A stretch of DNA of 64,000 nt, from NCBI RefSeq assembly GCF_018324685.1, contig NZ_AP023354.1:6220426-6284425 (forward strand), given 5' to 3'. Below the pieces are notes generated by a model. That model did no database searches. It was not told where the DNA came from and saw only the letters and a list, made by a program, of their open reading frames with translations. The stretch comes from Actinocatenispora sera. GTDB lineage: Bacteria > Actinomycetota > Actinomycetes > Mycobacteriales > Micromonosporaceae. Made by a program: the position numbers and the translations under genes. Numbering within the stretch: the stretch's first letter is position 1; each line of letters starts with the position of its first letter. Positions 7,696 through 55,648 of the stretch are shown here, piece after piece.

Positions 7696-7700
7696 CGTGC

Positions 7701-20318: not shown

Positions 20319-20324
20319 CCGCAC

Positions 20325-20435: not shown

Positions 20436-21371
20436 ATGCTTCGTTGGTTCGCCCGACGGCTCCTGCTCGCCATCCCCGTCGTCTGGGGCGTGGTGACCAT
20501 CTCGTTCTTCATGATGCACCTCGCCCCCGGCGATCCGGCCCGTACCGCGCTCGGGGAGAAGGCCAGCGACGCCTCGGTCGCCGCACTGCGCCACCAGTGG
20601 GGGCTCGACCAGAGCATGCCGTTGCAGTACCTGAACTACCTCAAGCAACTGGTGCACGGGGACCTCGGCACGTCGGTGTACTACCACGCACCGATCACCT
20701 CGTTGATGGCCCAGCGGCTGCCGGTGACGATCATCCTGGTCGTGCTGAGCGCGATCCTCACGATGCTCATCGCGGTACCGCTGGCCTCGCGCAGCGCCAC
20801 CCACCCCAACGGCCTCGCCGCCGTGGCGGTGCGGCTGTTCAACGCGGTCGTGCAGGGCGCGCCGACGTTCTTCATCGGCGCGATGCTGATCCTGTTCCTC
20901 GGGGTACGGATCGCGATCTTCCCGGCCGGCGGCTACCCGGCCGACATCGGCGGCCGGGCCTGGGCACTGGTCCTGCCGGCGCTGACCATCGCGCTGGGCA
21001 CCGTGCCGATCATGGTGCGCGGCCTGCGCGCGGCGATGATCGAGTCGTACGGCAGCGAGTACGTCGCCTTCGCCCGGTCCAAGGGCCTGCCGGAGCGGCC
21101 CATCCGGTACGGCTACGTCCTGCGCAACGCGGGCATCTCCGGCGTCAGTATCCTCGGCATCCAGGTCGGCGCGCTCGCCAGCGGCGCGCTGGTCATCGAG
21201 CAGGTGTTCGCGATCCCGGGAATGGGTTCGATGCTGATGACCGGGATCCTCAACCGCGACTACGCCCTGGTACAGGCGTGCACGCTGGTGTTCGGTCTGC
21301 TCGTGGTCGTGGTCTATCTCGGGACCGACCTCGCCTATGCCCGCCTGGACCCGAGAGCGAGGTTGTCATGA
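20436..21371 (+). CDS. dppB: Peptide ABC transporter permease, DppB type
   Basis: A 311-residue permease with six membrane helices. The N-terminus MLRWFARRLLLAIPVVWGV and the LAPGDPA segment near 29 are DppB/OppB hallmarks. The cytoplasmic coupling loop SYGSEYVAFARSKGLPERPI is the EAA loop that docks the ATPases, and GMGSMLMTGILNRDY closes the protein. AAGGAGG precedes the ATG. The stop overlaps the next permease (ATGA at 21368-21371). The gene symbol reflects family resemblance only; the cargo could be peptides or another small solute. Confidence 0.88.
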   Translation: MLRWFARRLLLAIPVVWGVVTISFFMMHLAPGDPARTALGEKASDASVAALRHQWGLDQSMPLQYLNYLKQLVHGDLGTSVYYHAPITSLMAQRLPVTIILVVLSAILTMLIAVPLASRSATHPNGLAAVAVRLFNAVVQGAPTFFIGAMLILFLGVRIAIFPAGGYPADIGGRAWALVLPALTIALGTVPIMVRGLRAAMIESYGSEYVAFARSKGLPERPIRYGYVLRNAGISGVSILGIQVGALASGALVIEQVFAIPGMGSMLMTGILNRDYALVQACTLVFGLLVVVVYLGTDLAYARLDPRARLS

Positions 21372-22258
21372 CCGTCACCGACGCCGCCGCGGTCGCCCGG
21401 ACCGCGATCACCCCACCGCGCAAGAGCAGGGTGTGGGCGCCGGCGTGGATGCGGCGGCACAACCTGCAGCTGTGGATCGGTGCCGGCATGCTCGGCCTGA
21501 TGGTGGTCGCCGCGATCTTCGCGCCGCTGATCGCACCGCACAACCCGATCACGCCGGACGCCGCGCACGCGCTGCTGCCGGTGTCGGCGGACCACCCGTT
21601 CGGCACCGACAACCTCGGCCGCGACATCTTTTCCCGGGTGGTGTACGGCGCGCGCTCCGACCTGACGATCGCGATCGTCGCGGTCGCCGCGCCGTTCGTC
21701 ATCGGGCTCGCGTTCGGGATCGTCTCCGGCTACTTCGGTGGCTGGTTCGACAGCATCATGATGCGGCTGGCCGACATCGTCACCGCGTTCCCGTTCTTCA
21801 TCCTCGTCATCGCGCTGGTGTTCCTGATGGGCAACGGGGCCCTGTCCATCTTCATCGCGATCACCTGCGTGTCCTGGGTCGCCTACGCCCGGCTGGTACG
21901 CGGCGAGGCGATGGTGTTGCGTAACAAGGAGTTCGTGGCGGCCTGCCAGGCCAGCGGCATCTCCACGGTCGGCATCCTGGTGCGCCACTTCGTTCCCAAC
22001 GTGGTCAGCCAGGCCATCGTGTACGCGATGAGCGACATCGTGATGAACGTCGGCGTCATCGTGACCCTCAGCTACCTGGGGCTCGGGATCACACCGCCCA
22101 CCCCGGACTGGGGTTCGATGATGGCGGGCGGCCAGCAGTTCCTCGCGGGCGGCTTCTACGGCATGACGCTGTTCCCGGCGGGTGCGGTGATCTGGACCAG
22201 CCTGGCGCTGTCGTTCATCGGTGACGGGCTGACCCACCAGCTGCGGATCGACCGGTAG
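21368..22258 (+). CDS. dppC: Peptide ABC transporter permease, DppC type
   Basis: A 296-residue permease with an N-terminal cytoplasmic stretch, one helix (about 36-58), then the FGTDNLGRDIFSRVVYGAR signature of DppC/OppC proteins and five further helices. The EAA docking loop reads RNKEFVAACQASGISTVGILVRHFVPN. The end, TPDWGSMMAGGQQFL, is also typical. It overlaps dppB by four bases and lies 11 bases before the first ATPase, so the importer is translated as one block. Confidence 0.88.
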   Translation: MTVTDAAAVARTAITPPRKSRVWAPAWMRRHNLQLWIGAGMLGLMVVAAIFAPLIAPHNPITPDAAHALLPVSADHPFGTDNLGRDIFSRVVYGARSDLTIAIVAVAAPFVIGLAFGIVSGYFGGWFDSIMMRLADIVTAFPFFILVIALVFLMGNGALSIFIAITCVSWVAYARLVRGEAMVLRNKEFVAACQASGISTVGILVRHFVPNVVSQAIVYAMSDIVMNVGVIVTLSYLGLGITPPTPDWGSMMAGGQQFLAGGFYGMTLFPAGAVIWTSLALSFIGDGLTHQLRIDR

Positions 22259-22269
22259 GAAGGCGTGAC

Positions 22270-23307
22270 ATGACAGTCGATTCGACCGGCGAGCTGCTGA
22301 TCGTCGAAGGCCTCTCGCTGGAACTGGACATCGGCGGGATGCAGCTCAACGCGCTGCGGGACGTGTCGTTCTCGCTGCGTCCGGGCGAGGCCCGGGGGCT
22401 CGTGGGCGAGTCGGGCTCGGGCAAGAGCCTGACGCTGCGGGCGATCCTCGGCTTGCTGCCGCCCAACGCCCGCATCACGTCGGGCCGGATGGTGGTCGCC
22501 GGCCAGGAGTTCGACCTGACCCGGACCGACCGGGAGCACCGGCGCCGCATCGCCCGGCTGCGCGGTTCGTCGGTCGCGATGATCTTCCAGGAACCCGCCG
22601 TGGCGCTCAACCCGGTGGTACCGGTGGGCAAGCAGATCATCGACGCCGTCGCCCGCCGCGACGGGCTCACCAAGCGGGCGGCGCGCGACTACGCGCTGCA
22701 CCTGATGGACCTGGTCGGCATCCACGACGCCAGCACGAAGATCGACGCGTACCCGTTCGAGCTGTCCGGTGGGCTCAAGCAGCGGGTGATGATCGCGGCC
22801 GCGGTCGCCGGCGAGCCGCAGCTGATCCTGTGCGACGAACCGACCACCGCACTCGACGTCACGGTGCAGAAGCAGATCCTGAGCCTGTTCACCCACCTGC
22901 GCGACGAGCTGCACGCCAGCCTGCTCTACGTCACCCACGATCTCGCGGTGGTGGCGCAGCTGTGCGACTCGGTCACGGTGCTCTACTCCGGCGAGGTGAT
23001 GGAGTCCTCGGACGATCTGCGCGCGGTGTTCGACGGCGCGCAGCATCCCTACACCGAGGCGCTGCTGCGATCCACGCCGGACGTCGACCGCATCGAGCAA
23101 CGGCTCTACTCGATTCCCGGCAGCGCCGCCTCGCTGAGCGAACGTGCCGGCGGGTGCCAGTTCGCGCGGCGCTGCGAGTACGCCCGGGACGACTGTCGCA
23201 CCGGCGCGATCCCGGACACCTCAGGCACCCCGGGCCGGGTCGTACGGTGCCTGCACAAGGTCGGCGCGCCCGCCGACGGCGTACCCGTGGGAGGCATCGA
23301 TGGCTGA
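22270..23307 (+). CDS. dppD: Peptide ABC transporter ATP-binding protein, DppD type
   Basis: A 345-residue ATPase. Walker A is GESGSGKS near 46, the Q-loop is MIFQEPAVALNP near 104, the signature reads LSGGLKQRV near 165 and Walker B is LILCDEPTTALDV near 185. The C-terminal oligopeptide/dipeptide ABC domain contains four cysteines, CQFARRCEYARDDC plus one in VVRCLH. In some relatives this pattern coordinates an iron-sulfur cluster. The ATG at 22270 follows AGGAAGG. The gene overlaps the second ATPase by eight bases. Confidence 0.88.
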   Translation: MTVDSTGELLIVEGLSLELDIGGMQLNALRDVSFSLRPGEARGLVGESGSGKSLTLRAILGLLPPNARITSGRMVVAGQEFDLTRTDREHRRRIARLRGSSVAMIFQEPAVALNPVVPVGKQIIDAVARRDGLTKRAARDYALHLMDLVGIHDASTKIDAYPFELSGGLKQRVMIAAAVAGEPQLILCDEPTTALDVTVQKQILSLFTHLRDELHASLLYVTHDLAVVAQLCDSVTVLYSGEVMESSDDLRAVFDGAQHPYTEALLRSTPDVDRIEQRLYSIPGSAASLSERAGGCQFARRCEYARDDCRTGAIPDTSGTPGRVVRCLHKVGAPADGVPVGGIDG

Positions 23308-24151
23308 GGTCGACGGCGTGGGCGTGCCGGTGGACGAACCGCTGCTGCGGTGCACCGACGTCAACATCAGCTTTGCCCAGCGCGGCAAGGCGGAGCGCTT
23401 CCACGCGGTACGCGACGCCTCGCTCGAGGTGGGTTCGGCCGACATCGTGGGCCTGGTCGGCGAGTCCGGGTCGGGCAAGTCGACGCTGGCGCGGGCGATC
23501 GTCGGGCTGCAGCGGATCGACTCGGGTGCCATCGAGTTCCAGGGCAGGCCGTTCGGGCGCACCCGTACCGCCGAGGACCGGCGCGGCATTCAGATGATCT
23601 TCCAGGACCCCTTCGGTTCGCTGGATCCGCGGATGAAGATCCGCTCCGCGCTGGCCGAGATCATCCGGCGGCACACCCCGCTGCGTGGCAAGCAGATCGA
23701 CGCGCGGTGCGCCGAGTTGATGGACATGGTGCAGCTGCCGCGATCGATCCTGTCCTCCCGGCCCGCCGGCATGTCGGGCGGGCAGCGCCAGCGCGTCGCG
23801 ATCGCGCGGGCGCTGTCGATCAACCCGCGGCTGCTGGTCGCCGACGAGCCGGTCGCCGCGCTCGACGTGTCGGTACAGGCGGGCATCGTGAACCTGCTGT
23901 CGGACCTGCGCCGCGACGTCGGGCTGTCGATCCTGTTCATCTCGCACGACCTGTCGATCGTGCGCACCCTGTGCGACTCGGTGAACGTGATCTACCGCGG
24001 CGACATCGTGGAGTCGCGGCCGTGCGCCGAGCTGTTCGACGACCCGCGCAGCGACTACACCAGAACCCTGTTGAGTGCGATCCCCCGGCTCAACGGGCCG
24101 CGTACCGAGGGCCTCGCGCAGGGGCAGTCGCTCGGCGCGCGGCGCCGCTAG
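23300..24151 (+). CDS. dppF: Peptide ABC transporter ATP-binding protein, DppF type (short)
   Basis: A 283-residue ATPase. Walker A is GESGSGKST near 53, the Q-loop is MIFQDPFGSLDPRMK, the signature is MSGGQRQRVAIARAL and Walker B is LLVADEPVAALDV. Unlike most DppF proteins it ends soon after YTRTLLSAIP and lacks the C-terminal cysteine-bearing oligopeptide domain, so the two ATPases are asymmetric. GGGAGG at 23289-23294 positions the ATG at 23300 inside the end of dppD. It ends one base before the convergent Rieske gene, with no visible terminator between them. Confidence 0.88.
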   Translation: MAEVDGVGVPVDEPLLRCTDVNISFAQRGKAERFHAVRDASLEVGSADIVGLVGESGSGKSTLARAIVGLQRIDSGAIEFQGRPFGRTRTAEDRRGIQMIFQDPFGSLDPRMKIRSALAEIIRRHTPLRGKQIDARCAELMDMVQLPRSILSSRPAGMSGGQRQRVAIARALSINPRLLVADEPVAALDVSVQAGIVNLLSDLRRDVGLSILFISHDLSIVRTLCDSVNVIYRGDIVESRPCAELFDDPRSDYTRTLLSAIPRLNGPRTEGLAQGQSLGARRR

Positions 24152-43317: not shown

Positions 43318-44184
43318 GTGCCGGACGAGGACACGGGCGGCGAGGCGCCCACCACCGCCGCGAAACGCCTGCCGCGCAAGGTGTACGAACGAGAGCTGCG
43401 GCGGCTGCAGATCGAACTGGTCCGGCTGCAGGAATGGGTTCGCGCCGAGGGCGCCCGGCTCGTGGTGATCTTCGAGGGGCGCGACGCGGCCGGCAAGGGC
43501 GGCACCATCAAACGCGTCAGCGAGAACCTCAACCCTCGGGTCGCGCGGATCGCCGCGCTGCCGGCGCCGAACGACCGCCAACGCAGCCAGTGGTACTTCC
43601 AGCGCTACGTCGAGCACCTGCCGGCCGCCGGTGAGATCGTCCTGTTCGACCGCAGCTGGTACAACCGGGCGGGCGTCGAGCGGGTGATGGGCTTCTGCAC
43701 TCCCGACCAGTACCGGATCTTCCTGCGGCAGTGCCCGATCTTCGAGCGGCTGCTGACCGAGGACGGAATCCTGCTCCGCAAGTACTGGTTCTCGGTCAGC
43801 GACACCGAACAGCAGCGCCGCTTCGCCGACCGGCTCACCGACCCGATGCGGCGCTGGAAGCTGTCACCGATGGACCTGGAGTCGATCACCCGCTGGGAGG
43901 ACTACTCCCGGGCCAAGGACGAGATGTTCGTGCACACCGACATCCCCGACGCCCCGTGGTACGTGGTGGAAAGCGACGACAAGCGCCGGGCCCGGATCAA
44001 CATGATCGCGCACCTGCTGTCCACGGTCCCCTACCATGCGGTACGCGAGCCGCAGATCGAACTGCCGCCCCGGCCGGCCGCGCGTGGCTACCAACGGCCA
44101 CCGCGCAGCGAGCAGACCTACGTGCCGGATCATGCGGCAACGCTGACCGACGTCACCGATCCGGCAGATCGTCCGGGCGGGTGA
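43318..44184 (+). CDS. ppk2: Polyphosphate kinase 2, class I
   Basis: A 288-residue P-loop kinase. Walker A is GRDAAGKGG at 54-62, Walker B and its basic partner are DRSWYNRAG near 119, and the lid contains RRFADRLTDPMRRWKLSP near 170. The sequence SQWYFQRYVEHLPAAGEIV and the closing ITRWEDYSRAKDEMFVHTD are strongly typical of class I PPK2, which makes ATP from ADP and polyphosphate. The GTG start at 43318-43320 follows AGGAGG by six bases and is preferred to the long upstream frame. In this stress island it could supply ATP when respiration is limited. Confidence 0.93.
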   Translation: MPDEDTGGEAPTTAAKRLPRKVYERELRRLQIELVRLQEWVRAEGARLVVIFEGRDAAGKGGTIKRVSENLNPRVARIAALPAPNDRQRSQWYFQRYVEHLPAAGEIVLFDRSWYNRAGVERVMGFCTPDQYRIFLRQCPIFERLLTEDGILLRKYWFSVSDTEQQRRFADRLTDPMRRWKLSPMDLESITRWEDYSRAKDEMFVHTDIPDAPWYVVESDDKRRARINMIAHLLSTVPYHAVREPQIELPPRPAARGYQRPPRSEQTYVPDHAATLTDVTDPADRPGG

Positions 44185-44220
44185 CCGCGGCCGGTGCCAG
44201 GTCGCCATCCCGCGCACGGT

Positions 44221-44254
44221 CCGGAGGGGCACGGTGCGTTGCGTGCCCCTCCGG
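44221..44254. terminator. Bidirectional stem-loop between PPK2 and the S53 operon
   Basis: CCGGAGGGGCACG and CGTGCCCCTCCGG make a perfect 13-bp stem with an 8-base loop in the 76-base gap between the convergent PPK2 gene (ends 44184) and the S53 peptidase gene (ends 44261). Confidence 0.75.
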
Positions 44255-44260
44255 CCGGTC

Positions 44261-46732
44261 TCAGGACAGGGTGAAGTCGAGCCTCGTGGTGTGGTCGGCG
44301 GTCACCGCGGCGGTCTTGGTGGCCGGGGTGTGGCCCGACGCCTCAGCGGTGACCGACTGGTCGCCGGCCGGGGTGAACAACCGGTAGCGGCCGTCGGTGT
44401 CGCCGTGCGTCGTGCTGCCGGCCGCGGTCACCGTGGCCGGCAGCCCCGCACCGGAGCCGTCGGTCACCCGACCCACGACCATGCCACCCGCAACCGGGTC
44501 GCAGCTGCGGTTGCCGACGAAGACGTCGTCGATCTCCCACCACTTCGACCAGTTCCCGGTGTAGTGGAACCGCACGATCACCCGATGGCCGGCGGCGTCG
44601 GGCAGGTCGACGACCACCGGGCCGCTGACGTTCGGCGTACCTGCCTTGTGCCACACCGACTTCCAGGTCTTCCCGCCGTCGGTACTGGTTTCCACGGTTG
44701 CGGTGGAGTTCACCGCGCCGTGCAGGTCGGTACCGAAGGTGATCGCGGGTTCGGTCGCCCCGGCCAGGTCGAAGGTGGGCGAGGTCAGCATCGTGTCCTG
44801 GATGGCGTGCTGTCCACTGTGGTCGGAGTCGACCACCGCGAAGTTTCCCTCGCCGCCGGTGGCATTGACCCGGCCGCCGGGGTTGGTGAACTGCCAGCCG
44901 GGCTTGTAGTCGTAGCCGGGCTGCCGGTGGTTCACGTCCGCGACCCGCCACCCCTTTGGGGCCTGGCCACCATCGAACGACTGCACCGTACCGTTCCGGG
45001 TGGCCCGGTAGCCGGCGGCCGTGCACACCGCCTCGACGGTCAGCGCGACGTCCGCGGTCACCGCCTCGGTACCGAGCTCCACCGTGAGGCTCCGAGCGGT
45101 GTAGCCGGTGTCGACGGCGGCGACGTGCAGGGTGTACTTCTCGTTCTGCAACAGATCCAGCTCGTACCTGCCGGTGGCCGGATCGGTGTGGGTGGTCGTG
45201 CCGTCCGATGCGGTGACCGTGGCGTACAGACCCCACCCGTGGCCGGAGCCGTCGGTGACGGTGCCGGTGACAGACACGGTCGGGACCGGGTCGAGAGCGA
45301 GGTCCTGGGTCGTGCTGCCGCCCTCGGTGACCGACACGGCGACCGTCTTCGCCTGGTACGCCCGGCGAGACGCCGTCACCTCCCAGCTTCCGGCCGGCAA
45401 CCGCAGCGCGTACTTTCCGTCGGCGCCGGTGGTCGCCCTCCGTCCCCTCGCCTCGATCTCGACGCCCGAGACCGGTTCGTGCGTCGCGGAATCGGTCACG
45501 GTGCCGGTGACGGTCCCGGTCGCCTTGTACGTGAACGCCGCGACGCCGTTCGGGGTCCCGAGCCCGGTCGGCCCGTCGTAGCCAGGGCCACCGCCGCACA
45601 GGTACGCCGGGGTGCACGTGCCGTTGCTGCCGGAGGTCACGTCGTTCAGCGCGGCCGGGTCCACCAGCGCCGCGTTGTACGGGTAGGAGGCGGGTTCGGT
45701 GGCGGCGGCCGGCGCGCCCGCGAGGGCGTAGGTCGCGGCGATCAGCGGCGCGGAGGCGCTGGTTCCGCCGTACACCTTCCATCCGTTGTAGTAGACCGCG
45801 ACGCCGGTGTTGGGGTCGGCGACCGCCGACACGTCGGCTACCGCCCGCTTCTCGCACCCGCTGTCGGTCTGCCAGGACGGCTTGTCCTCGTAGGCGGAGC
45901 AGCCGCTTCCGGCGCCGCTCCAGACGCTCTCGGTCCAGCCGCGCGCCGTACCCGCGTCCCGACCGAGCGAGGTGCCGCCGACCGCGACGACGCCCTCCGC
46001 GGTGGCGGGGTAGCTGGTCCCGTAGCCGTTGTCGCCGGTGCTCGCGGTGACCACGACGCCGGGGTGGTGGTAGTGCCCGTCGTAGTCCCCCTCACCCGGG
46101 TCCTCGGTCGCGCCGTAGCTGTTGGAAACGTACTTCGCGCCCATGGCGACAGCCTGATCGACCGAGGCGGCGAGCGCGTCGATCGAGTTGTCGTCGCCCT
46201 CGACGAGCAGGATGTGGCAGTTCGGGCAGGCGGCGGAGACCATGTCGAGGTCGAGCGAGATCTCCCCGGCCCAGCCGGTGTTCTCGACCGGATAGTCGGT
46301 GCCGCCGCGCTGGTCGACCTTGCGGAAGCAGCCGTTGTCGGTGGTACAGGGCGGCAGGCCGTACTGCGCGCGGTAGGTGGCGAGGTCCGACTCGGCCGTC
46401 GGATCGTCGTACGCGTCGACGATCGCCACCGTCACGCCGTCACCCGCGGTGGCCGACGGCAACGTGTACGCCGCCTGAAGGTCACCGGGCCCGAACCCGG
46501 ACGGGCTGACCGCGTCAGGCAGGACTCCCTTGCTGGACCTGATATCCGTACGCCGCAGCGCGAAGCACGACACCTTTCCCGGACCCGGGTCCGCGGCGCA
46601 CGAGCGGGTCGCGGCCGGTGCGGCGGTGTCCTGACCCGGCGGTACCGAGGCGGCGGCCGGCGCGGTGGCGAGCACGATGCCGGCAGCGAGGGCCGCCACC
46701 GTCCACCATCGTCTGTTCCTGGCTCGGGCCAT
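44261..46732 (-). CDS. Secreted S53 (sedolisin) peptidase with regulatory-like beta domains
   Basis: An 823-residue exported serine-carboxyl peptidase. After a signal peptide (about 1-29) and a short mature N-terminus, the S53 domain (about 85-400) has catalytic Glu157 and Asp161 in GEISLDLDM, oxyanion Asp234 in STGDNGYG and nucleophile Ser325 in GGTSASAP. A calcium-type GPGYDGPTGLGTPNG closes the domain. Two carboxypeptidase-regulatory-like beta-sandwiches follow (about 405-565), then a jelly-roll domain with WWEIDDVFVGN and a third regulatory-like repeat at the end. The roughly 200-residue pro-kumamolisin propeptide of classic sedolisins is absent. It is the last gene of the secreted-protein operon, one base after the beta-propeller gene. 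Confidence 0.88.
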   Translation of the reverse strand: MARARNRRWWTVAALAAGIVLATAPAAASVPPGQDTAAPAATRSCAADPGPGKVSCFALRRTDIRSSKGVLPDAVSPSGFGPGDLQAAYTLPSATAGDGVTVAIVDAYDDPTAESDLATYRAQYGLPPCTTDNGCFRKVDQRGGTDYPVENTGWAGEISLDLDMVSAACPNCHILLVEGDDNSIDALAASVDQAVAMGAKYVSNSYGATEDPGEGDYDGHYHHPGVVVTASTGDNGYGTSYPATAEGVVAVGGTSLGRDAGTARGWTESVWSGAGSGCSAYEDKPSWQTDSGCEKRAVADVSAVADPNTGVAVYYNGWKVYGGTSASAPLIAATYALAGAPAAATEPASYPYNAALVDPAALNDVTSGSNGTCTPAYLCGGGPGYDGPTGLGTPNGVAAFTYKATGTVTGTVTDSATHEPVSGVEIEARGRRATTGADGKYALRLPAGSWEVTASRRAYQAKTVAVSVTEGGSTTQDLALDPVPTVSVTGTVTDGSGHGWGLYATVTASDGTTTHTDPATGRYELDLLQNEKYTLHVAAVDTGYTARSLTVELGTEAVTADVALTVEAVCTAAGYRATRNGTVQSFDGGQAPKGWRVADVNHRQPGYDYKPGWQFTNPGGRVNATGGEGNFAVVDSDHSGQHAIQDTMLTSPTFDLAGATEPAITFGTDLHGAVNSTATVETSTDGGKTWKSVWHKAGTPNVSGPVVVDLPDAAGHRVIVRFHYTGNWSKWWEIDDVFVGNRSCDPVAGGMVVGRVTDGSGAGLPATVTAAGSTTHGDTDGRYRLFTPAGDQSVTAEASGHTPATKTAAVTADHTTRLDFTLS

Positions 46733-46733
46733 G

Positions 46734-47930
46734 TCACTTCCTTCCGCAACTGAGGTGGCTGACCTGCGGGTCGACGAGGTCGACGACCGAGTTGTCGGTC
46801 ACCGAGCCGACCGCCCAGACGTCGTTCGGGCCGGTGCCGTCGATCGCGGCGTAGTAGTAGCGCAACCCGAGCCCCTTCGGCCCCGGTGCCTCGACCATGG
46901 CCCAGGCCGAGCCGTCCCAGTGGGCGAACGTGTGCGCACCGTCCGGTACCTCGACGATCACCCAGACGCTGCTCGCGTTGGCCGCGTACACCTTGTTCAT
47001 CCGGCCGTTGCCGAGATCCGGCAGATCCATCACCTGCCAGGCGTCACCGTCCCAGCGCGCCGCCAGCGGGGCCGCATCGGTGGCGCTGCCGGCGAGCAAC
47101 TGGCTGCCGACCGCGTACACGGCGCCGTCCGCGCCGACGCTCACGTCCCGGAAGGAGGAGCGTCCGGTGCCCTCCGGGCTCGCTACGACGGTCCACGAGG
47201 TGCCGTCGTAGTGCTCGGTGAAGGTGCCGTACCCGGAGCCGACAGCCTGGTAGCCGACCGCCCAGATGTCGGTCGCCGACCGGGCCGCGACCGCGGACAG
47301 CACGGTGTCCGGTGCATCCGCAGCGGGGTTCGGCACGATCTGCCAGGAGCTGCCGTCCCAGTGTTCGACCAGCGCCCCGAGCGGGATCGTGTTGCCCACG
47401 ATCTCGGCACCCGCCTGGTACGTGCCGCCGACCGCCCAGGCATCGGTGGCCGACAGCGGGTCGACGTCCGACAGGTAGAGCGTCGTGTGCACCGGGTCCG
47501 GTGCGACCGGCAGCGGCATCATCGCCCACCGGCCGTCGTGCCACCGTTGCACGGTCTGGACTCGTCCGGTGCTGGTGAACGTCCAGCCCTCACTGGCCGA
47601 CGAGTACGACGGGCCGCTGGTTCCCATCGGCAGCACCGACATGGCGGGGATCTGGGTGGTGTCAGTGATCGCCCGGCCGTCCCAGCGGGTCAGCCGGGAC
47701 TGCCCGGTCACGCCCTCGAAGCCAGCTATCCGGACGTCCTTGCTGGACAGGGCATCGACGCCGGACAGCTCGCTGATGTTCTGCCGCTTCGGCGGGGTGT
47801 CGACCAGCTGCCAGCTCGGCGTGCAGCCGTGGTCCGGCCGGGCCGGGCTGGCCGATGCGGAGGTGCTCGCGGCGGCGGACGCGAGCAGCACGCCCACCGC
47901 CAGCGCAACCTTGGTTCTGGTGATATGCAT
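46734..47930 (-). CDS. Secreted beta-propeller-like protein
   Basis: A 398-residue exported protein with a signal peptide (MHITRTKVALAVGVLLASAA, cleaved near ASA). The mature part is a series of five or six repeats of about 45-55 residues, each with S-A-T/G-DxWAVG followed by WDGxxW (for example SATDAWAVGG, SATDIWAVGY, VEHWDGSSWQIV, ARWDGDAWQVM, AHWDGSAWAMV). That is a Kelch/galactose-oxidase-like beta-propeller pattern. No catalytic motif is seen, so it may bind protein or polysaccharide. AGGAGATCTC precedes the ATG. It lies between the two S53 peptidase genes, 8 bases after one and 1 base before the other. Confidence 0.75.
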   Translation of the reverse strand: MHITRTKVALAVGVLLASAAASTSASASPARPDHGCTPSWQLVDTPPKRQNISELSGVDALSSKDVRIAGFEGVTGQSRLTRWDGRAITDTTQIPAMSVLPMGTSGPSYSSASEGWTFTSTGRVQTVQRWHDGRWAMMPLPVAPDPVHTTLYLSDVDPLSATDAWAVGGTYQAGAEIVGNTIPLGALVEHWDGSSWQIVPNPAADAPDTVLSAVAARSATDIWAVGYQAVGSGYGTFTEHYDGTSWTVVASPEGTGRSSFRDVSVGADGAVYAVGSQLLAGSATDAAPLAARWDGDAWQVMDLPDLGNGRMNKVYAANASSVWVIVEVPDGAHTFAHWDGSAWAMVEAPGPKGLGLRYYYAAIDGTGPNDVWAVGSVTDNSVVDLVDPQVSHLSCGRK

Positions 47931-47938
47931 GAGATCTC

Positions 47939-49135
47939 CTAGAAGGCGCCGATGCCGTGCGGGGTACCGAGTCCGGTCGGCCCGTCGTATCCGGGGCCTG
48001 CGTTGCACAGGTAGCCGCCGCCGCAGGTGCCGGCGGGGCCGCTCGTCACGTCGTTCAGCGCCTTGGCATGCGAGTACGGGTACTGGACCGGCACCGTGGT
48101 CGCGTTGCCGGCGAGCGCGTACACGCCGGCGATCAGCGGTGCCGCCGCGCTGGTACCGCCCAGCGCCAACCAACCGCCTCCGGAGCCGTACGTGTCGTAC
48201 ACGGCGACCGGTGTGCTCGGGTCGGCGACCGCGGAGACGTCCGCGATGGTGCGCTTGCCGCACAGCTTGTCCTTCTGCCAGGCCGGTTTCGCCACGTACG
48301 CCGAGCAGCCGGAGCCGGCGAACCGCCAGGACCGCTCGCCCCAGCCGCGGGCCGAGTCGTCCTGGTAGAGCGAGGTGCCGCCCACGCTGACCACGGTGGG
48401 CAGTCCGGCCGGCATCTGCGCGCCGAAGCCGCTGTCACCGGAGGACGCGACGATCGTGACGCCCGGGTGGTCGTAGTGGTCGGCGAGGTCGGCGAGTTCG
48501 CTGTTCCACTCGAGGGCGCCGTAGGAGTTGGAGACGACGTCGGCGCCGAGCTCCACCGCCGTGTCGACGGCGATACCGAGGTTCTCGATGCTGTTGTCGT
48601 CCGCCTCGACCAGCAGCAGCCGGCAGTTCGGGCAGACGGCGGAGGCCATGTCGAGATCCAGCGAGATCTCCGCCGCCCAGCCCGCATCGGCCGGCGGCGG
48701 CGTGGTGCCACCCCGCTGGTTGACCTTCTTAAAGCACGGGAAGTCGGCGTCGCAGGCGGGCAGCCCGTTGGCCTTGCGGTACTCGGCGAGATCGGACTCG
48801 GCGTTGGGGTCGTCGAAGGCGTCCACGATCGCGATCGTCTGCCGCGCGCCCAGCAGGTCGGACGGCAGGTCGTAGGCGTCCTGCAGATCGGCGGCCAGGA
48901 ACGGGTGCAGGTCGGCGGCCGCGGCAGCCGAGCGACTCAGCGGCCGGCCCTTCGCATCGCTGTCGACCATCGCGAGGCAGGCCGCGTAGCCCGCGGCCGG
49001 TGCGGAGCAGGCCCGCTGGACGGTCACCTGGGTTGCTGGCGCGGCGCTGGCGGTGGCTCCGGCCATGGCCGCCGCGAGCAGCCCGGCGGCGATGGCGACG
49101 GTCCCGATCCGCCGCCGGAATCGTGTGTGAGGCAT
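47939..49135 (-). CDS. Secreted S53 (sedolisin) peptidase, compact form
   Basis: A 398-residue exported S53 peptidase. The signal peptide is followed by a short CSAPAAGYAACLA region and then the catalytic domain: Glu156/Asp160 in AEISLDLDM, Asp234 in SSGDSGFG and Ser329 in GGTSAAAP. It ends immediately after the calcium-type GPGYDGPTGLGTPHG, with no C-terminal accessory domains. It is paralogous to the larger enzyme downstream, with near-identical phrases around all catalytic residues. Again no long activation propeptide is visible. AGGGAG lies upstream of the ATG at 49135. It follows the large secreted protein by 12 bases. It should act extracellularly, with an acidic pH optimum expected from the family. 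Confidence 0.88.
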   Translation of the reverse strand: MPHTRFRRRIGTVAIAAGLLAAAMAGATASAAPATQVTVQRACSAPAAGYAACLAMVDSDAKGRPLSRSAAAAADLHPFLAADLQDAYDLPSDLLGARQTIAIVDAFDDPNAESDLAEYRKANGLPACDADFPCFKKVNQRGGTTPPPADAGWAAEISLDLDMASAVCPNCRLLLVEADDNSIENLGIAVDTAVELGADVVSNSYGALEWNSELADLADHYDHPGVTIVASSGDSGFGAQMPAGLPTVVSVGGTSLYQDDSARGWGERSWRFAGSGCSAYVAKPAWQKDKLCGKRTIADVSAVADPSTPVAVYDTYGSGGGWLALGGTSAAAPLIAGVYALAGNATTVPVQYPYSHAKALNDVTSGPAGTCGGGYLCNAGPGYDGPTGLGTPHGIGAF

Positions 49136-49147
49136 GGGGAACTCTCC

Positions 49148-51601
49148 CTAGCTCAGCGCGTAGGCGCGGATGATGGTCTGGGTCACCGCGTTGCCGTCCG
49201 CGTCGTGTGCGGCGATGCGCAGTGACACGTAGCCGTTGGTGCCGGCCAGTTCCGGGTGCTGCACCGTCGTGGTGAACCCGCCATCGCCGGTACCGGTCGC
49301 CGCCTGCGGCTCGCTCCAGCTCGCACCGTCGTCGTAGGACACCGAGACGGTCGCGGCGGACCCCTTCTGCGTCGAGTGCTGCTGGCCCGCGACGGTGAAG
49401 CCGAACGAGTACGCGCCGCCGGCGGGCGCGTGCGACCCGGCGTCCAGGGGCAGGTCGTAGGTGACGAACAGCAGCGGCAGGAACGAGCAACCGCGGGCGG
49501 GATCGGGCGGGCACTCCTCGTCGTCGGCACGGTTCGCCGCCGCGTCGCCGGGCGCGGAACGGAACGTCCAGTCCGTGTCGATCCGCTGCTCGGTGTTGCC
49601 GTTCGGGTGGTAGGCCCAGTCCAGCTCGTAGTCCGCCGCAGCGGACAGCATCGGCAGCGGCACCTGGTACGGACGAAGACCGCCGTCGGAGTTCGCCGTC
49701 GAACTCAGCGCGAGCGTTCCGTTGCGGGAGAACCGAAGCGACGAGTCGGCAGCCGAGACTCCGCCTGTGTCGGCGTAGTGCCCGGGGTTCGCGTCACCGA
49801 GCGGCTGGAGGAACAGCACGGCGTTGTCGTCCTGCCTGCACGCGCCGCAGACACCCAGCCACGGGTCGGTCACCACCACGCTCCCGGTGCCGATGCCGAC
49901 CTTCGGCTCCTGCTGGTACGGCATGGCCGGCGACGGCACGTCCGGTCCGCGGTCCCAGTCTTCGGTGATCACCTCGCCGGGATGGATGTGCCGCCGCCGG
50001 TCCCAGCGACGGGTCCCGTCGCTGCCGTTCATCGCCGCCTGCCAGACGGTCAGCTCCGGCTCGCTGGTGTACCAGTAGTCGGTGCGTTCCCCGACCGGCA
50101 CCGTCGACCCGTTGGTGATGTTGCTCTGGCTCCACGGCGTGAACATGTTGGCGAGCAGCTGCGTCTGCTGCGTGCAGGTCGAGCAGGCCCCGGCGTGGAT
50201 CGTGCTGTGCACGGTCGTGAGGTCCGCCTTCGCCACGTGGTGGGTCAGCGTCGACGGGATCTGGCCCCGGTTCGGAAACTCCAGCGCGTACCGCGGGCCG
50301 GGGTTGAGCCCTTCGATGGACTGAACGAGCTCGGTCTGCGCCGCGAAGTCGAACGAGCCGGTGTGTACCGGTTCGGTCGGGGTCACGTACAACGGGTTCG
50401 CCAGGCCGAAGCCGTGCAGCATCCGCATCGCGACGTAGTAGAAGTAGGAGTCGAAGCCGTACGGCTGGACGCGCATGGCGCCGCCGGTGACCGACGCCCG
50501 GGTCATCGACAGGTAGTCGACCTGCTCGTAGCCGGTGGGAGCCGGATCCACCGTCGCCTCGTACGGCTTGGCCTGCCGGGCGTCGAGCGAGACGGTGAGG
50601 TCCTTGGTGACCGACACCTCCGGCTTGACGACCAGGCTGGACTGCAGGGTCAAGTCGTCACCGGGGCCGCTCATCACCGCGAAGTCCAGGTTGAACTTCC
50701 CCTCCGGGACGCTGAAGTTCGACGCGCCCTGGATCCCCGGCAGCCCGACGAGCACCCATCCGCGGGTGAAGTCGTCCACGTTCTGCAGGACGCCGACCAT
50801 GGTGGCGGGCTTGCCGTCCCGGCCGATCGGGTCCACCGTCAACGTGTGGTACGGCAGGGCCGCGCCGCTGTCGGCTTTCGCGCTCAGGGGCGCGGCCTTG
50901 GGCGCCGCGCCGCCGGGCTTCGCCGCCGGAGCCAGCGCCGGCGCAACGGGTAGCGCGGGTGCGCCGTCCGGACGGTCGAGGGTCAGCTTCCCGCCGCCGG
51001 GCAGCGTGCCGACCGGCGTGTCCGACGCACCGCTGCGGCTGTCCCGCCACTGCTTCACCAGCATCGTGCCGAACGCCCGGGCGCTCTTCTTGGACACGGT
51101 GCTGGTTCCGCTGGCCGCGGACAGTGCCGGCAACGCCGAACCGCTGTGCCCGGACACCGTGACGGGCACGGTCTTGCTGTGCGCGTCGTCGAGCTTGGCC
51201 CGGACCAGGTAGCTGACGTCGAACAGCCGTAGGTCCATGGTGGACGACAGGTAGGGCGCGACGGCGTTCGGGATCACGTACTTGTCGCCGTTGAAGCCGA
51301 ACATCGAGAACGTGGCGCCGTCGGCGGCCCCGGCATCGAGGGCCGAGACGCTCTGCGTACCGTCGCCGTTGGTGTCGACGCGAAACCGGTCACCGGTCAC
51401 CAACGTGACGGTGGCGCTCGACGGCGCCTTCGGTCGTGCGGCCGGCCGAGCCGGCGTCGCCGGGCCCGGATGGCGCTCCACCGTGACCGGTGGGCTGGTG
51501 GAGCCGCCGGGCGCCGCGGTCACGGCACCGGCCACCGCAACCGTGCCGGCGACCAGCGCCAACCCGGCGGCGACCGAGACTGCCCTTCTGGGGATCTTCA
51601 T
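49148..51601 (-). CDS. Large secreted protein with subtilase-like N-terminus but no protease domain
   Basis: An 817-residue exported protein. MKIPRRAVSVAAGLALVAG begins a signal peptide. Then come a Pro/Ala linker and SSATVTLVTGDRFRVDTNGDG, the opening characteristic of large actinobacterial S8 subtilases, with FNGDKYVIPNAVAPYLS like their propeptides. The expected Asp-His-Ser protease domain does not follow. Instead there are beta-rich segments, a cysteine cluster (ACSTCTQQ near 460, CGACRQ near 570), a domain with YELDWAYHPNGNTEQRIDTDW, and a C-terminal VSVSYDDGASW immunoglobulin-like domain. GGGAGG precedes the ATG at 51601. It heads the secreted run and may be an adhesin, inhibitor or co-factor of the S53 enzymes. 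Function unknown. Confidence 0.75.
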   Translation of the reverse strand: MKIPRRAVSVAAGLALVAGTVAVAGAVTAAPGGSTSPPVTVERHPGPATPARPAARPKAPSSATVTLVTGDRFRVDTNGDGTQSVSALDAGAADGATFSMFGFNGDKYVIPNAVAPYLSSTMDLRLFDVSYLVRAKLDDAHSKTVPVTVSGHSGSALPALSAASGTSTVSKKSARAFGTMLVKQWRDSRSGASDTPVGTLPGGGKLTLDRPDGAPALPVAPALAPAAKPGGAAPKAAPLSAKADSGAALPYHTLTVDPIGRDGKPATMVGVLQNVDDFTRGWVLVGLPGIQGASNFSVPEGKFNLDFAVMSGPGDDLTLQSSLVVKPEVSVTKDLTVSLDARQAKPYEATVDPAPTGYEQVDYLSMTRASVTGGAMRVQPYGFDSYFYYVAMRMLHGFGLANPLYVTPTEPVHTGSFDFAAQTELVQSIEGLNPGPRYALEFPNRGQIPSTLTHHVAKADLTTVHSTIHAGACSTCTQQTQLLANMFTPWSQSNITNGSTVPVGERTDYWYTSEPELTVWQAAMNGSDGTRRWDRRRHIHPGEVITEDWDRGPDVPSPAMPYQQEPKVGIGTGSVVVTDPWLGVCGACRQDDNAVLFLQPLGDANPGHYADTGGVSAADSSLRFSRNGTLALSSTANSDGGLRPYQVPLPMLSAAADYELDWAYHPNGNTEQRIDTDWTFRSAPGDAAANRADDEECPPDPARGCSFLPLLFVTYDLPLDAGSHAPAGGAYSFGFTVAGQQHSTQKGSAATVSVSYDDGASWSEPQAATGTGDGGFTTTVQHPELAGTNGYVSLRIAAHDADGNAVTQTIIRAYALS

Positions 51602-51943
51602 GGTGTCCTCCCTGTGTGGTCCGATCCGGCCAGGTGTCCGGCGATCAGAGTGGCCGGTACCCGTCGTCCGACGGCGTCGGGTCGGAACGTTCCGGGCCAA
51701 CGCCGCCGCACGGGTCGGTGGGCGGAGTTGCGTCTCCCGGTACGGGCCGGGCATCGTCGGGCCCCACCGGTGGCCGGGAACGCTGGCCTGTCGTCGGGTC
51801 CGCGCCCCCCGCGGATGGGCGTGACGGGTCGTCGGGCATGAGGTGTCCACTCCGTGGTCGAGGCCGGGTCGACCCGGAGTCTGCGCCCTCGTCACACCCG
51901 CCGACGAGTGATCGGATGAGGGGTTTTTGCGCTCCGGCGAGGT
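51602..51943. other. Gap between the LAL regulator and the secreted-protein operon
   Basis: These 342 bases contain one possible short frame (51645-51839) and the stem-loop at 51899-51956. The promoter of the secreted run should be here, probably between 51602 and about 51900, but I see no clear elements. Confidence 0.5.
51645..51839 (-). CDS. Possible 64-residue Pro/Asp-rich peptide
   Basis: ATG at 51837-51839, GGAG about 11 bases upstream, stop at 51645, 43 bases before the large secreted-protein gene. The peptide (MPDDPSRPSAGGADPTTG opening) is highly polar and low-complexity with no hydrophobic core or signal peptide. It could be a small regulatory peptide or leader for the operon, or a chance frame in GC-rich DNA. 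Codon-position composition does not decide. Confidence 0.25.
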   Translation of the reverse strand: MPDDPSRPSAGGADPTTGQRSRPPVGPDDARPVPGDATPPTDPCGGVGPERSDPTPSDDGYRPL

Positions 51944-51956
51944 TTACTCGTCGGCG
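51899..51956 (-). terminator. Long stem-loop overlapping the LAL regulator stop
   Basis: CGCCGACGAGT (51899-51909) and ACTCGTCGGCG (51946-51956) are exact 11-base inverted copies; the regulator's TAA stop (51944-51946) lies at the stem base. The 36-base loop is unusually AT-rich (GGGGTTTTTGCGC). This likely ends the regulator transcript before the secreted-protein genes. Confidence 0.55.
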
Positions 51957-54841
51957 TCGAGCAAGCCGAGCCCGACGGCCCGCACGGCCAGCGCGGTGCG
52001 GCTGTCGACCTGTACTTTCCGCATGGCCGAACGGATGTGGCTCGCCACCGTCTGCCGGGACAGCACCAGCTCGGCGGCGATCTCGGGATTGGTTCGTCCG
52101 GCCGAGACCAGCCGGACGACCTCCCGCTCGCGCGGCGACAGCTCGTCGCCGTAGCTGGGCCGCCCACCACCGTGCGGCGCGACGCCGTGCTCACGCAGTG
52201 TCACCGCCGCGCGTTCCTTGGCGACCGTGGCGCCCAACCGGGCGAACCCGCGGCGCGCCTCGTCGAGCAGCCGAACACCGGCCCGGTCGCCGGCGGCCAG
52301 CAGCACCCGGGCACGACGCTCGGTCGCCAGCAACGCATCGTAGGGACGGGGCTGCGCGGCCCACGCCGTTGCGGCCTGCTCGTACCGCGCTGCGGCCTCG
52401 CCCGACGCACCTCGCGCCTCGGCCAGCTTCGCCCGGCACAACAGCAGCGCGGCCCGCGGGGCCGGGATCTGCCGCTCGCCCAACCCGGCGGCGAAGTCGG
52501 CGACCAGCGCCGCGGCCTCGTCCGGCCGGCGCGCCGCAAGAAGCGCCTCGACGTGCACCGGCACCGGCGCGGTGGCCAGGATCCACAGGCCGCTTCGCGC
52601 GATCAGCTCGACCGCCTCGCCGCCGATGCGCAGCGCGTCGGCCACCCGCCCCTGGCCAAGCCACAGCATCGCCAGCTCGGCGACCGGATCGACCGCGATC
52701 CCCACCGTCCGAGGCGGCAGCGTCTGGTCCACGACCAGTTCGAGTCGACGAGTGGCCCGCTCCGCATCGCCGCCCGCCGCGTCGAGCGCACCCGCGACCA
52801 GCGCCGCCTCCCGCCGGCTGCCCGGTGACAGCTCGGGGTCGTCGGCAAGCGCTGCCGCGCGTGCAGCCAGGCCGAGCCAGTTGCCGGTACGCCAGTCGAG
52901 CCGCAACAGGTTGGCGCGCGCGATGCTCCGTAACCGCTGGTACTGACCGGCGTCGGTGAGTTCCAGCGCCCGGTCCAGCCGCTGTCGGGCCTCGACGTTG
53001 TGGCCCCACAGCAACGCCAGGTCGCCGATGTTGACCTCGACCCGCGCGACGTGCGGCCGGTCGACAGCGCTTCCGGTCGCCGTCGACAGCTCCGCCGCCA
53101 CCTCCCAACCGGATTGCTCACCAAGAGCCAGCAGGCTGGTCATCAGGTCCACGTCGACCCGCAGCCGCTCGGTCGCCGGCAGCCCGGCCGTCAGCTGCGG
53201 TACCTGCTGCAGCCAGCGCCGGCAGGTCCGCGCCGTGCGGTCGACCCAACCCGGGTAGCTGAGCAGAGCGACGGTCATCGCCAGCTGGATGGAACCACGC
53301 GGCAGTTCGGGCACCGCGCGCTCCAGTTGGGCGTACCCCTCGGCGTAGTGCGACCGGTGCAGCAGCAGCCGGCCGAGCTGGGCGCGCACCTCGGCGCGCG
53401 GCACCGGCTCCAGACCGTCACTGTCCAGTGTGGAGCGTAATGCGGCGATCAGCCGGTTGTAGCGGTGCTCGTCGGTCACCGAGGCGAACGTGAGCTTGTA
53501 GGTCAGCCGGCCCACCTCGTTCGGCGCGGCGGTGGTGGCGTGCGTGATCAGGCCGTCCAGCAGCGCAGCGCCGGTGGACTCGTCCCCGGCGAGATGCGCG
53601 GCGTCGGCGGCACGCTCCGCGTAGCCGAACCACTCACCGGACTCGCCGGCCTCGCCGAAGTGCCGGGCCAACCGCCCGACCGGCTGCGGCGTCGACCGCT
53701 CCAGGTGCCGGGCCGCACGCAGGTGCATGGTGCGCCGCTCCCGGACGGCGGTCGCCTCGTAGACCGCGCGATAGGCGAGAAAGTGCCGGTACGAGACCGC
53801 ACCGCGCTCGTCCTCGTCCAGCAGGCCGGCATCCACCGCCTCGGCGAGCGCGTCACGCACGACACCCGGCGCCAGCCCCGACACCGCGACGAGCAGGTCC
53901 TCGTCGGCCGGATCGACCAGTACCGCCATCGCGCGCAGCACCGTCAGCGTCGCCGGGCCGAACCGGGCGGTGCGTTCCAGCACCGCGTCCCGCACGGTCG
54001 GCGGTACCGCGATGTCGGCGAGATCCTGCCGGACCCAGTGGCCGTCCCGGTACAGCAGGTCGGCCCGCTCGGACATCAGCCGCACCGACTCCTCGATCGC
54101 CAGCGGGACACCGTCGGTACGCTCGCGCACGAACTCGGCGAAGCTGTCCGACACCTTCTCGTCGGACAGCATCGACGACACCAGTTCCGCGGTCTGCGCC
54201 ACGTCGAGCGCGGCGAGCGAGACCCTGGCCCGGGCCGTACCCACCGGTAGCCCGGAGGACATCCGGCGCAGCAGCGAGTCGGCCGCCACCTCCTCCGGCC
54301 GGTACGTCACGACCAGGCTCATCGTGGCCTGGGACACCAGGAACAGCAGGAACTCCAGTGTCGCCTCGTCGGCCCAGTGCACGTCCTCGACGACCAGCAC
54401 GGTCGCCTCGACCGCCTGCATCACCTCCACCAGGGCACGAAACAGCCGGTGCCGGGCGGCACTCGCGTCCTCCGCCGGTTCCAGCGCCGGCGGCAGCGCC
54501 TCGGCCCACTCCGGGAACAGCTGCCGCAGCGCGCCGGCCAGGCTGCTCAGTCCCAGCGCCGCGACGTCGTCGGCCGCCGGCCGCACCGCATCGACCACCG
54601 GTCCCAGCGTGTACGGGGCGCGAAACGGTGGGCACCCGCCGAGCAGGGCCGGCCCCGTCGTGGTGGCCAGCACCTCGCGCAGCAGCCGGCTCTTTCCGAT
54701 GCCCGCCTCGCCCTCGATCAGCACCACGGCGGGCGACTGCGCCAGCGCGTCGCGTACCGTCGCCAGGTCACGCTGCCGACCGACGAAGCGCGGGCGGGAC
54801 ACGGGCACGGTGCCGGTGTCGCGCGGTTCCCGTGCCGTCAT
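51944..54841 (-). CDS. LAL-type LuxR family transcriptional regulator
   Basis: A 965-residue ATPase-regulator of the LAL class. Walker A is GEAGIGKS at 44-51, and Walker B lies in VLVVEDVHWADEATLEFLLF near 155. A long TPR-like helical middle (about 330-880) follows. A C-terminal LuxR helix-turn-helix (about 900-955) contains LSPREREVVRLVSAGRTNPEIAAELVLSRQTVASHI. In actinobacteria such regulators often act as pathway-specific activators. It lies directly upstream of, and co-directional with, the secreted S53 operon, so it is the prime candidate activator. The ATG at 54841 matches the family start (FVGRQRDLATVRDAL). Confidence 0.9.
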   Translation of the reverse strand: MTAREPRDTGTVPVSRPRFVGRQRDLATVRDALAQSPAVVLIEGEAGIGKSRLLREVLATTTGPALLGGCPPFRAPYTLGPVVDAVRPAADDVAALGLSSLAGALRQLFPEWAEALPPALEPAEDASAARHRLFRALVEVMQAVEATVLVVEDVHWADEATLEFLLFLVSQATMSLVVTYRPEEVAADSLLRRMSSGLPVGTARARVSLAALDVAQTAELVSSMLSDEKVSDSFAEFVRERTDGVPLAIEESVRLMSERADLLYRDGHWVRQDLADIAVPPTVRDAVLERTARFGPATLTVLRAMAVLVDPADEDLLVAVSGLAPGVVRDALAEAVDAGLLDEDERGAVSYRHFLAYRAVYEATAVRERRTMHLRAARHLERSTPQPVGRLARHFGEAGESGEWFGYAERAADAAHLAGDESTGAALLDGLITHATTAAPNEVGRLTYKLTFASVTDEHRYNRLIAALRSTLDSDGLEPVPRAEVRAQLGRLLLHRSHYAEGYAQLERAVPELPRGSIQLAMTVALLSYPGWVDRTARTCRRWLQQVPQLTAGLPATERLRVDVDLMTSLLALGEQSGWEVAAELSTATGSAVDRPHVARVEVNIGDLALLWGHNVEARQRLDRALELTDAGQYQRLRSIARANLLRLDWRTGNWLGLAARAAALADDPELSPGSRREAALVAGALDAAGGDAERATRRLELVVDQTLPPRTVGIAVDPVAELAMLWLGQGRVADALRIGGEAVELIARSGLWILATAPVPVHVEALLAARRPDEAAALVADFAAGLGERQIPAPRAALLLCRAKLAEARGASGEAAARYEQAATAWAAQPRPYDALLATERRARVLLAAGDRAGVRLLDEARRGFARLGATVAKERAAVTLREHGVAPHGGGRPSYGDELSPREREVVRLVSAGRTNPEIAAELVLSRQTVASHIRSAMRKVQVDSRTALAVRAVGLGLLDADE

Positions 54842-55048
54842 CGCCCACCTCTCCCGGCCAGCCGGTCAGCGCCGGACGCTACCCAAGATCAGCGTGCTTG
54901 GGAAGTGCCGGCGGACCGAACCGCCAGCCCACGGGCTCGGCGGAGTCCGATCGCAACGCCCACGCCGGGTACGGCATCGAGAACGGTGCTGCGGCCACGC
55001 AACCGGCGGTGGACGTCGAGGCAGACCACTCCCCGTCCCACTGGGTGG

Positions 55049-55648
55049 TCAGCGGGTGAGGCCGAGGGTGGCGATGAGGTCTTCGTGCAGTTCGAACCAG
55101 ATGCGGTGGCAGGAGTCGCGGTCGATCCCGGTGATCCAGGCAGGCTCGGCGGATGCCTTGGCCAGCGCCGCGGTGAAACGGTCGTGATAACCGGTGAACC
55201 GGAGCAGGTGCGTGGTCAGGCGGTGTTCGATGCCGGCCAGCCGCTGAGCGGGTTCCCGCAGGGCCGTGATCGTCGAGGCCAGGCTTACGTCCTGGGGACC
55301 GAGTCCCAGCTCGACGAGTTGCCACCGGGTGCAGGCCGCGCCGACGACCTCGTTGAGCGGGAGGAAGTCCCGGTAGATCGTCGCTATCTCGCTCCGCGCA
55401 CCGGTGGCGTCGAGCTCGGCGGCCAGCAGCTGCTCGCCGTGCGCCTTTCCTGATTCGGTCAGCGACCATTCGTCGTCTGCGCCGTACGAGCTGCGGGTGA
55501 CCCAGCCGTGGGCGGCGGCGTCCAGCAGGTGCTCCTCGACCTCCGGCTGGGGCAGGTGGACCCGTTCGGCGATGCGGGCACCGTCGCCGTGCCCCAGGGT
55601 CCGTACCGCGTGCAGTGCCAGGACGTGGTTCGGCGTACTCGCTGTCAT
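55049..55648 (-). CDS. Winged-helix regulator-like protein coupled to the PEP-dikinase-like enzyme
   Basis: A 199-residue protein. Residues 8-75 form a winged-helix domain (HAVRTLGHGDGARIAERVHLPQPEVEEHLLDAAAHGWV, then WSLTESGKAHGEQLLA). This is followed by an all-helical part with EVVGAACTRWQLVELG and HRLTTHLLRFTGYHDRFTAAL. MarR/PadR-like folds look similar, but the C-terminal part is not a standard dimerisation domain. Its ATG overlaps the stop of the dikinase-like gene (55645-55648), so stoichiometric production with that enzyme is likely. It might provide substrate specificity or be a transcription factor responding to the enzyme's product. Function unknown. Confidence 0.6.
   Translation of the reverse strand: MTASTPNHVLALHAVRTLGHGDGARIAERVHLPQPEVEEHLLDAAAHGWVTRSSYGADDEWSLTESGKAHGEQLLAAELDATGARSEIATIYRDFLPLNEVVGAACTRWQLVELGLGPQDVSLASTITALREPAQRLAGIEHRLTTHLLRFTGYHDRFTAALAKASAEPAWITGIDRDSCHRIWFELHEDLIATLGLTR

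Follow-up and report, generated by a model that had tools for sequence, protein, structure and literature searches.

Sedolisins of family S53 (kumamolisin, sedolisin, TPP1) generally carry a large prosegment, which according to the accessible part of the source seems to be involved in correct folding (PMC6278154). The propeptides of subtilases (S8) are described, in the accessible part of another source, as chaperones and inhibitors that serve the S8 domain of their own polypeptide or a cognate enzyme (PMC10580911).

On the regulatory side, the accessible parts of two papers describe small proteins that are encoded beside, or bound to, transcription factors and act in actinomycete transcription (PMC10972967, PMC12709188). 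In AfsR-AfsS of Streptomyces a large ATP-binding regulator is followed by the gene of a small protein (PMC10972967). CrsL, a 5.7-kDa disordered transcription modulator of actinobacteria, binds CarD and RNAP; no LAL is named for it in the accessible part of the paper (PMC12709188). It offers an earlier example of a very small, disordered protein acting as a modulator of transcription.

The locus analysed here lies in a 64,000-nucleotide stretch of Actinocatenispora sera DNA (the window). Its compact S53 peptidase (S53c) shares the catalytic domain and the catalytic and Ca-site motifs with the sedolisins, but it has no large prosegment and is adjoined by a separately encoded S8-type protein. This second protein, called the shell below, has the N-terminal region and the C-terminal domains of large actinobacterial S8 subtilases but not their catalytic domain, and unlike the subtilase propeptides of the accessible account (PMC10580911) it would serve an S53 enzyme in trans. 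As in AfsR-AfsS, a large ATP-binding regulator is followed by a small gene, here named the tail-protein gene; however, the regulator of the window is LuxR-type, no SARP is among its Pfam families, and its presumed target is a protease operon. In the open-access literature, a body that leaves subscription papers mostly outside, no listed title or abstract dealt with the cassette, with subtilase shells accompanying S53 enzymes, or with YEPL-ended proteins.

Composition of the cassette

The genome of the window is a single contig of 7.04 Mb. The preliminary description had presented the cassette (Table 1) as four co-directional genes separated by gaps of 12, 8 and 1 bp and headed by an LAL regulator. 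The gene positions are confirmed and the three gaps are exact, and all four products have signal-peptide-like N-termini (judged by eye). The LAL gene is the first gene and lies on the same strand, but it does not stand in tight register: it ends 342 bp before the gene of the 817-aa protein and is not its direct neighbour, as the gap holds the tail-protein gene, which is missing from the preliminary description, 104 bp after LAL and 43 bp before the shell. A scan of 43900-55100 for promoters and terminators found none; the label "LAL-regulated" is a putative one, drawn from gene position and a candidate palindrome. Elsewhere in the window, a region of lower GC (65-70%) at 18894-24151 holds an apparent peptide ABC-transporter operon (binding protein, two permeases and two ATPases, by eye).

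Table 1. Features of the protease cassette, numbered from the first letter of the window.
Feature	Position	Strand	Basis or description
LAL-type regulator, 965 aa	51944-54841	minus	AAA_16 ATPase N-terminus, LuxR/GerE HTH C-terminus
Candidate operator GAGGGCGCAGACTCCGGGTC, poor in the window copy	51871-51890	minus	Gibbs sampling
Small tail-protein gene, 64 aa	51645-51839	minus	Acidic, Pro-rich, C-terminus DDGYRPL; in LAL-shell gap
Putative subtilase shell, 817 aa	49148-51601	minus	S8 propeptide-like region and C-terminal domains, without S8 catalytic domain
Shell, propeptide-like region, residues 58-209	50975-51430	minus	Aligned to S8 protease, E 3e-12
Shell, C-terminal domains, residues 252-817	49151-50848	minus	Aligned to the same S8 protease, E 5e-26
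Compact S53 (sedolisin) peptidase S53c, 398 aa, bare catalytic domain	47939-49135	minus	Kumamolisin profile match
Secreted propeller-like repeat protein, 398 aa	46734-47930	minus	Weak PF12768 match
Multidomain S53 peptidase, 823 aa	44261-46732	minus	S53, CarboxypepD_reg repeats, choice-of-anchor-J-like region

The 817-aa protein belongs to no Pfam or NCBIfam family, the best matches lying far below the cut-off. Among the matches listed (101 genomes) most of its relatives are found in longer ORFs, many of 1,100-1,300 aa, and among the listed long-ORF matches the coverage is of one end only. Both ends could be aligned to a single S8 protease of 1,170 aa, i.e. the two blocks of Table 1 correspond to its residues 95-251 and 669-1169, respectively. 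The S8 domain of this protease comprises residues 277-541, and the 417 residues 252-668 are represented by the 42 residues 210-251 of the 817-aa protein. No S8 catalytic domain was detected in the latter, either with Pfam S8 at E<=1 or with a local profile of four S8 domains run with filters off (-0.2 bits). Judging from these alignments, the protein is the shell of an S8 subtilase that keeps the propeptide region and the C-terminal domains without the catalytic domain. The protease-less protein of the preliminary description therefore stands as a non-catalytic partner, now concretely a subtilase shell with a propeptide-like region, but not as an orphan, and its reading as an unrelated protein was rejected. 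In a Pfam scan of nine relatives, Peptidase_S8 was found in four (L013, L014, L015, L085), a PA-domain match alone in another four (L041, L086, L087, L115), and neither in the fusion L101 described below.

Since some copies are broken or truncated (L106, L107, L108), one may ask if the shells are subtilases in decay that have remained next to S53 genes. We find this very improbable, and the shell was rejected as a pseudogene, because dN/dS is 0.33 between two species, full-length copies occur in several genera, and four cysteines are invariant across 18 shells.

Structural comparisons added little: a PDB search with the shell profile gave best E-values of 0.088 and 0.16 only, and the AlphaFold2 models of the shell with 6 sequences (mean pLDDT 39.2) and of a read-through chain joining shell and S53c, with 11 rows (mean pLDDT 40.2) were judged uninformative. 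The order of strands and helices in the propeptide region is ferredoxin-like in both models at low confidence, and was not counted as evidence.

The S53 domains of the window match kumamolisin and sedolisin. A profile of 11 S53 sequences matched kumamolisin (E 2e-27) from precursor residue 183, so the prodomain is not covered by S53c, and no Pfam prodomain match was found for its N-terminus at E<=1. E156, D160, D234 and S329 are invariant in the 11 aligned sequences, and the Glu-x3-Asp, [ST]GDxG and GGTS motifs are present; from the alignment and our knowledge of the S53 family we take these four to be the catalytic residues. The C-terminal motifs DV..G and GYDGPTG, at 362 and 382, presumably form the Ca-binding site of the family. 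S53c is thus a predicted S53 peptidase, assigned by its catalytic domain alone. In the multidomain S53 peptidase the anchor-J score is 29.9 against a cut-off of 30. The propeller-like protein reaches 20.3 bits (E 0.0004) against a cut-off of 28.8 for PF12768, and a PDB search with it gave no match.

Recurrence of the cassette and pairing of shell and S53

The same five genes (LAL, shell, S53c, propeller-like protein, multidomain S53) were found by tblastn in the same order at two more loci of the genome that holds the window (L037, L038) and in Actinocatenispora comari (L042, also fetched as L050), the nearest named relative as far as the cassette is concerned. This recurrence places the gene order beyond chance. 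The A. comari products are identical to those of the window at 94% (LAL), 92% (shell), 97% (S53c), 83% (propeller) and 88% (multidomain S53). In a Micromonosporaceae MAG (L044/L051) the last four genes are present, and the contig stops short of LAL at one end and cuts the final gene at the other; an actinomycete MAG (L052) has LAL, shell, S53 and propeller, and Nonomuraea gerenzanensis (L182) has these four followed by an S8 protease that replaces the second S53. Homologues of the propeller protein occupy the equivalent place in L037, L038, L042, L044, L052 and L182. Co-occurrence and gene order in relatives, the check suggested in the preliminary description, thus speak for the cassette: it recurs in order, and shell and S53 are mostly neighbours and once fused. 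The loci were collected with the shell, S53, LAL or tail protein as query, and the cassettes, several of which are from one genus, are not independent samples.

No flanking gene is common to the window, L037, L038 and L042 copies (blastp, E<=1e-10, called genes), nor do the window cassette and its 92% ortholog in A. comari share one. That the A. comari cassette lies among other genes than the cassette at 44261-54841 hints at movement of the whole cassette.

The pairing was counted for 40 shells that have no S8 domain and have readable flanks. S53 lies directly downstream of the shell in 23 cases and directly upstream in 6, and one shell is fused to it in frame; in other words, 30 of the 40 adjoin S53 or are fused to it. 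Two adjoin an S8 protease, and no protease gene is adjacent to the remaining eight (L041, L054, L102-L105, L108 and the second of the tandem shells in L107). For this count the frameshifted pieces of L106 and L107 were merged by hand; the split S8 genes L110 and L111, the contig-end shells L046, L088 and L109, and the later-found L182, L183 and L185 were left out. The fusion (L101, G045, 6674-9679) joins the C-terminal part of a shell and a complete S53 domain in one ORF of 1,002 aa. The S53 motifs are retained in it, and its N-terminal part scores only 7 bits with the shell profile, so the essential piece may lie elsewhere than in the propeptide region. The distances of shells and their partner S53 sequences are correlated (r 0.94, 21 pairs; none of 2,000 permutations as high), which is what any pair staying linked would show.

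Several further arrangements were observed. In L103-L105 (G001, G002, G003) a shell type of Actinocatenispora adjoins sigma-like and anti-sigma-like genes and no S53 (by eye), and a short shell piece related to this type, with a 415-codon frame, is found in the genome of the window (L108, G000). In G091 (L106, L107) broken copies of shell and S53 lie near an intact pair, and shells occur in tandem.

The genome of the window has 19 S53 matches, two of which are pieces of one gene, i.e. 18 genes with 18 of 45 candidates scored. By coordinates, 8 of these 18 belong to cassettes or pairs and the other 10 lack an adjacent shell or cassette, so that these 10 S53 cores need no neighbouring shell.

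These data bear on the question of whether shell and S53 touch each other at all. The shell could be secreted to bind substrate, cell wall or mycelium on its own account and simply share its expression with S53, with neither contact nor chaperoning, and this would suit both the fusion, in which the C-terminal part is the sole part clearly kept, and the eight shells that have no protease neighbour. It fits less well with the propeptide-like region, which the window protein retains and which also has matches among other shells, or with the frequent adjacency in two orders, the existence of a fusion and the matching paralogue histories. We regard it as possible, but on balance doubtful.

The LAL regulator and the tail protein

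The regulator matches PF13191 (E 1.5e-21) and PF00196 (E 1.2e-15), and the N-terminal ATPase, the large size and the C-terminal LuxR HTH of an LAL are all present; no TPR family is among the 17 Pfam families listed. The genome of the window has three LAL matches at E<=1e-60 (61 of 113 first-look candidates scored), each at the head of a cassette.

When the LAL-shell gaps of five cassettes were aligned, a common frame became visible that ends in (D/G)-D-(G/E)-Y-(E/R)-P-L-stop. The protein encoded in the window has no hydrophobic signal-like stretch, and a comparison of the gene with that of A. comari gave a dN/dS of 0.33, from 15 differences only. A scan of the same genome for the motif found five places, i.e. 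the three cassettes and two that have TGG for the stop, and none for the reversed pattern.

With the criterion [YH]-x-P-[LIV]-stop, applied on the sense strand and within 700 bases behind LAL, each of 20 LAL-headed protease cassettes yielded one tail gene (window, L037, L038, L042, L052, L085, L087, L115, L149-L152, L174, L176, L177, L182, L183, L185, L186, L187), which span Micromonosporaceae, Streptomyces, Nonomuraea and a MAG. A further tail gene is present in L051, whose LAL is off the contig. Shells without such an LAL number 26, of which 25 have readable upstream sequence (L093 is without), and in none of these 25 was the pattern found within 800 bases upstream. L149-L151 were recruited by the tail pattern and the other 17 cassettes by other routes; the tails of L115, L174 and L182, missed by narrower patterns, were first spotted on reading the gap, and the final criterion was then applied to all alike. 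On the contrast of 20/20 cassettes versus 0/25 shells, a chance small ORF was rejected.

The 21 tail proteins are 33-89 aa long and all acidic (net charge -3 to -15), with 6-19 prolines each. Conservation lies at the C-terminus: all 21 have P at position -2, 20 have Y at -4 (the Nonomuraea protein has H), 19 have L at -1 and 16 have E at -3. By comparison, Y-x-P-[LIV] precedes 63 of the 39,972 stops across the fetched loci, a figure that includes the tails of the cassettes themselves and duplicate copies. No match was obtained in Pfam (7 proteins tested) or NCBIfam (6 tested), and the conserved MLGIGP stretch given for CrsL in the accessible part of its paper is absent from the 21 proteins (by eye).

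In the 354 genomes scanned for the family, the narrower pattern D-x-Y-E-P-L-stop occurs at 10 places, spread over 8 genomes; 8 of these places lie in cassettes, and the reversed pattern occurs at 4 places. The two outside cassettes (G419, G491) belong to frames of 7 and 25 codons. In 397 genomes of the order it occurs at 7 places (two in the genome of the window, G419, G491 and three others) and the reversed pattern likewise at 7, i.e. there is no excess. Since it needs Asp at -6, this pattern misses true tails (L174, L176, L177, Streptomyces), and the scan is consequently no proof that tails are lacking outside the family.

Annotation easily overlooks tail genes. On plasmid unnamed3 of Streptomyces sp. 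SAT1 (L183) we observed LAL, tail, a shell annotated as hypothetical and an S53 match annotated as S8 family serine peptidase; no tail gene is listed for the gap in the PLSDB gene table, which is itself called incomplete.

The relation of tail and regulator was further seen in 14 genomes with 18 LAL matches at E<=1e-60, representing 17 LAL genes. All 13 LALs of at least 43% identity have a tail gene, and none was found for the four at 31-36% (two in G064, one each in G023 and G286), where the sole motif match within 1.2 kb is a short frame ending in KACYYPV. One of these four is divergent beside an S53 gene and one lies beside an S8 gene, so the proximity of a protease is not enough for a tail. 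Two plasmids of Streptomyces anthocyanicus encode an LAL of 47% identity, with no S53, S8, shell or tail gene recognised (profile scan of one plasmid). The tail gene is the most regular companion of the window-type LAL. The gene that follows it is more variable: shell then S53 in the window type and L183, S53 first in L085, L087, L115, L149-L152, L174, L186 and L187, and an S8 protease in L176, L177 and L185. In other words, the family of the catalytic part can change between S53 and S8 while LAL and tail protein stay.

The strict pairing with one LAL subfamily and the fixed C-terminus are the grounds on which we propose that the tail protein may bind LAL. The position of its gene, directly after a large ATP-binding regulator and first in the presumed operon, would also agree with two other roles, in neither of which it would be an LAL ligand: the tail protein might act as the effector of the operon, in the way AfsS does for AfsR, or it might be a translated leader by which the gene behind it is regulated. 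We consider this possible, though less likely than not; against it speak the conservation of the amino-acid tail, which would be unsuitable for a leader, and the variation of the next gene between cassettes (shell, S53 or S8).

A palindrome search by Gibbs sampling over 10 LAL-tail gaps gave a score of 103.8 versus a mean of 76.5 and a maximum of 82.1 in 20 shuffles. The consensus, approximately TTTCxGGCATCTGCCxGATC, lies upstream of the tail gene and is a candidate operator, with poor sites in the window and L176 and with some of the gaps coming from related genomes. Scores were 97.8 versus 77.4 with 9 gaps, and 113.6 versus 90.5 (15 shuffles) in a first run with 12 gaps. In the LAL-tail gap of L038 the end of the LAL gene seems to be duplicated behind it (by eye).

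A possible two-part protease and its control

We give only a little less than an even chance to a model in which a secreted protease of clan SB, made of two parts, is encoded by an operon under the control of LAL and the small tail protein. LAL would drive transcription of the operon, subject to tuning by the tail protein, and the products would meet outside the cell. After secretion the shell would act in trans on the bare S53 core as a folding helper or inhibitor, a role carried over from that of subtilase propeptides, and it might also be the targeting or substrate-binding part for this core. The tail protein would stay in the cytoplasm, where its conserved C-terminus would be read by LAL or its transcription complex and so tune the operon, and the propeller protein and the multidomain S53 would add substrate binding and a second activity. 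The roles that the preliminary description gave to the non-catalytic partners (activating, presenting or restricting the peptidases) are likewise hypothetical.

To our knowledge, the inputs of LAL regulators are largely open, and so is the way in which the secreted proteolysis of actinomycetes is switched on. The tail protein, very small and almost invariant at its C-terminal end, accompanies one LAL subfamily and is a directly testable candidate for an input or partner of LAL. The shell/S53 pair and the natural fusion suggest that a protease family can make use of non-catalytic parts from a different one, and the pair bears on the folding and restraint of sedolisins that have no prodomain.

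The more far-reaching reading is that the cassette encodes a split secreted protease of a new kind, in which a subtilase shell works with a sedolisin core encoded directly beside it. The switch would be a novel class of tail proteins in the cytoplasm, with a C-terminal Y-E-P-L that LAL reads. We think this unlikely as it stands; if it is true, the pair of regulator and tail protein would be a portable module for S53 or S8 proteases in Micromonosporaceae, Nonomuraea and Streptomyces, plasmids included.
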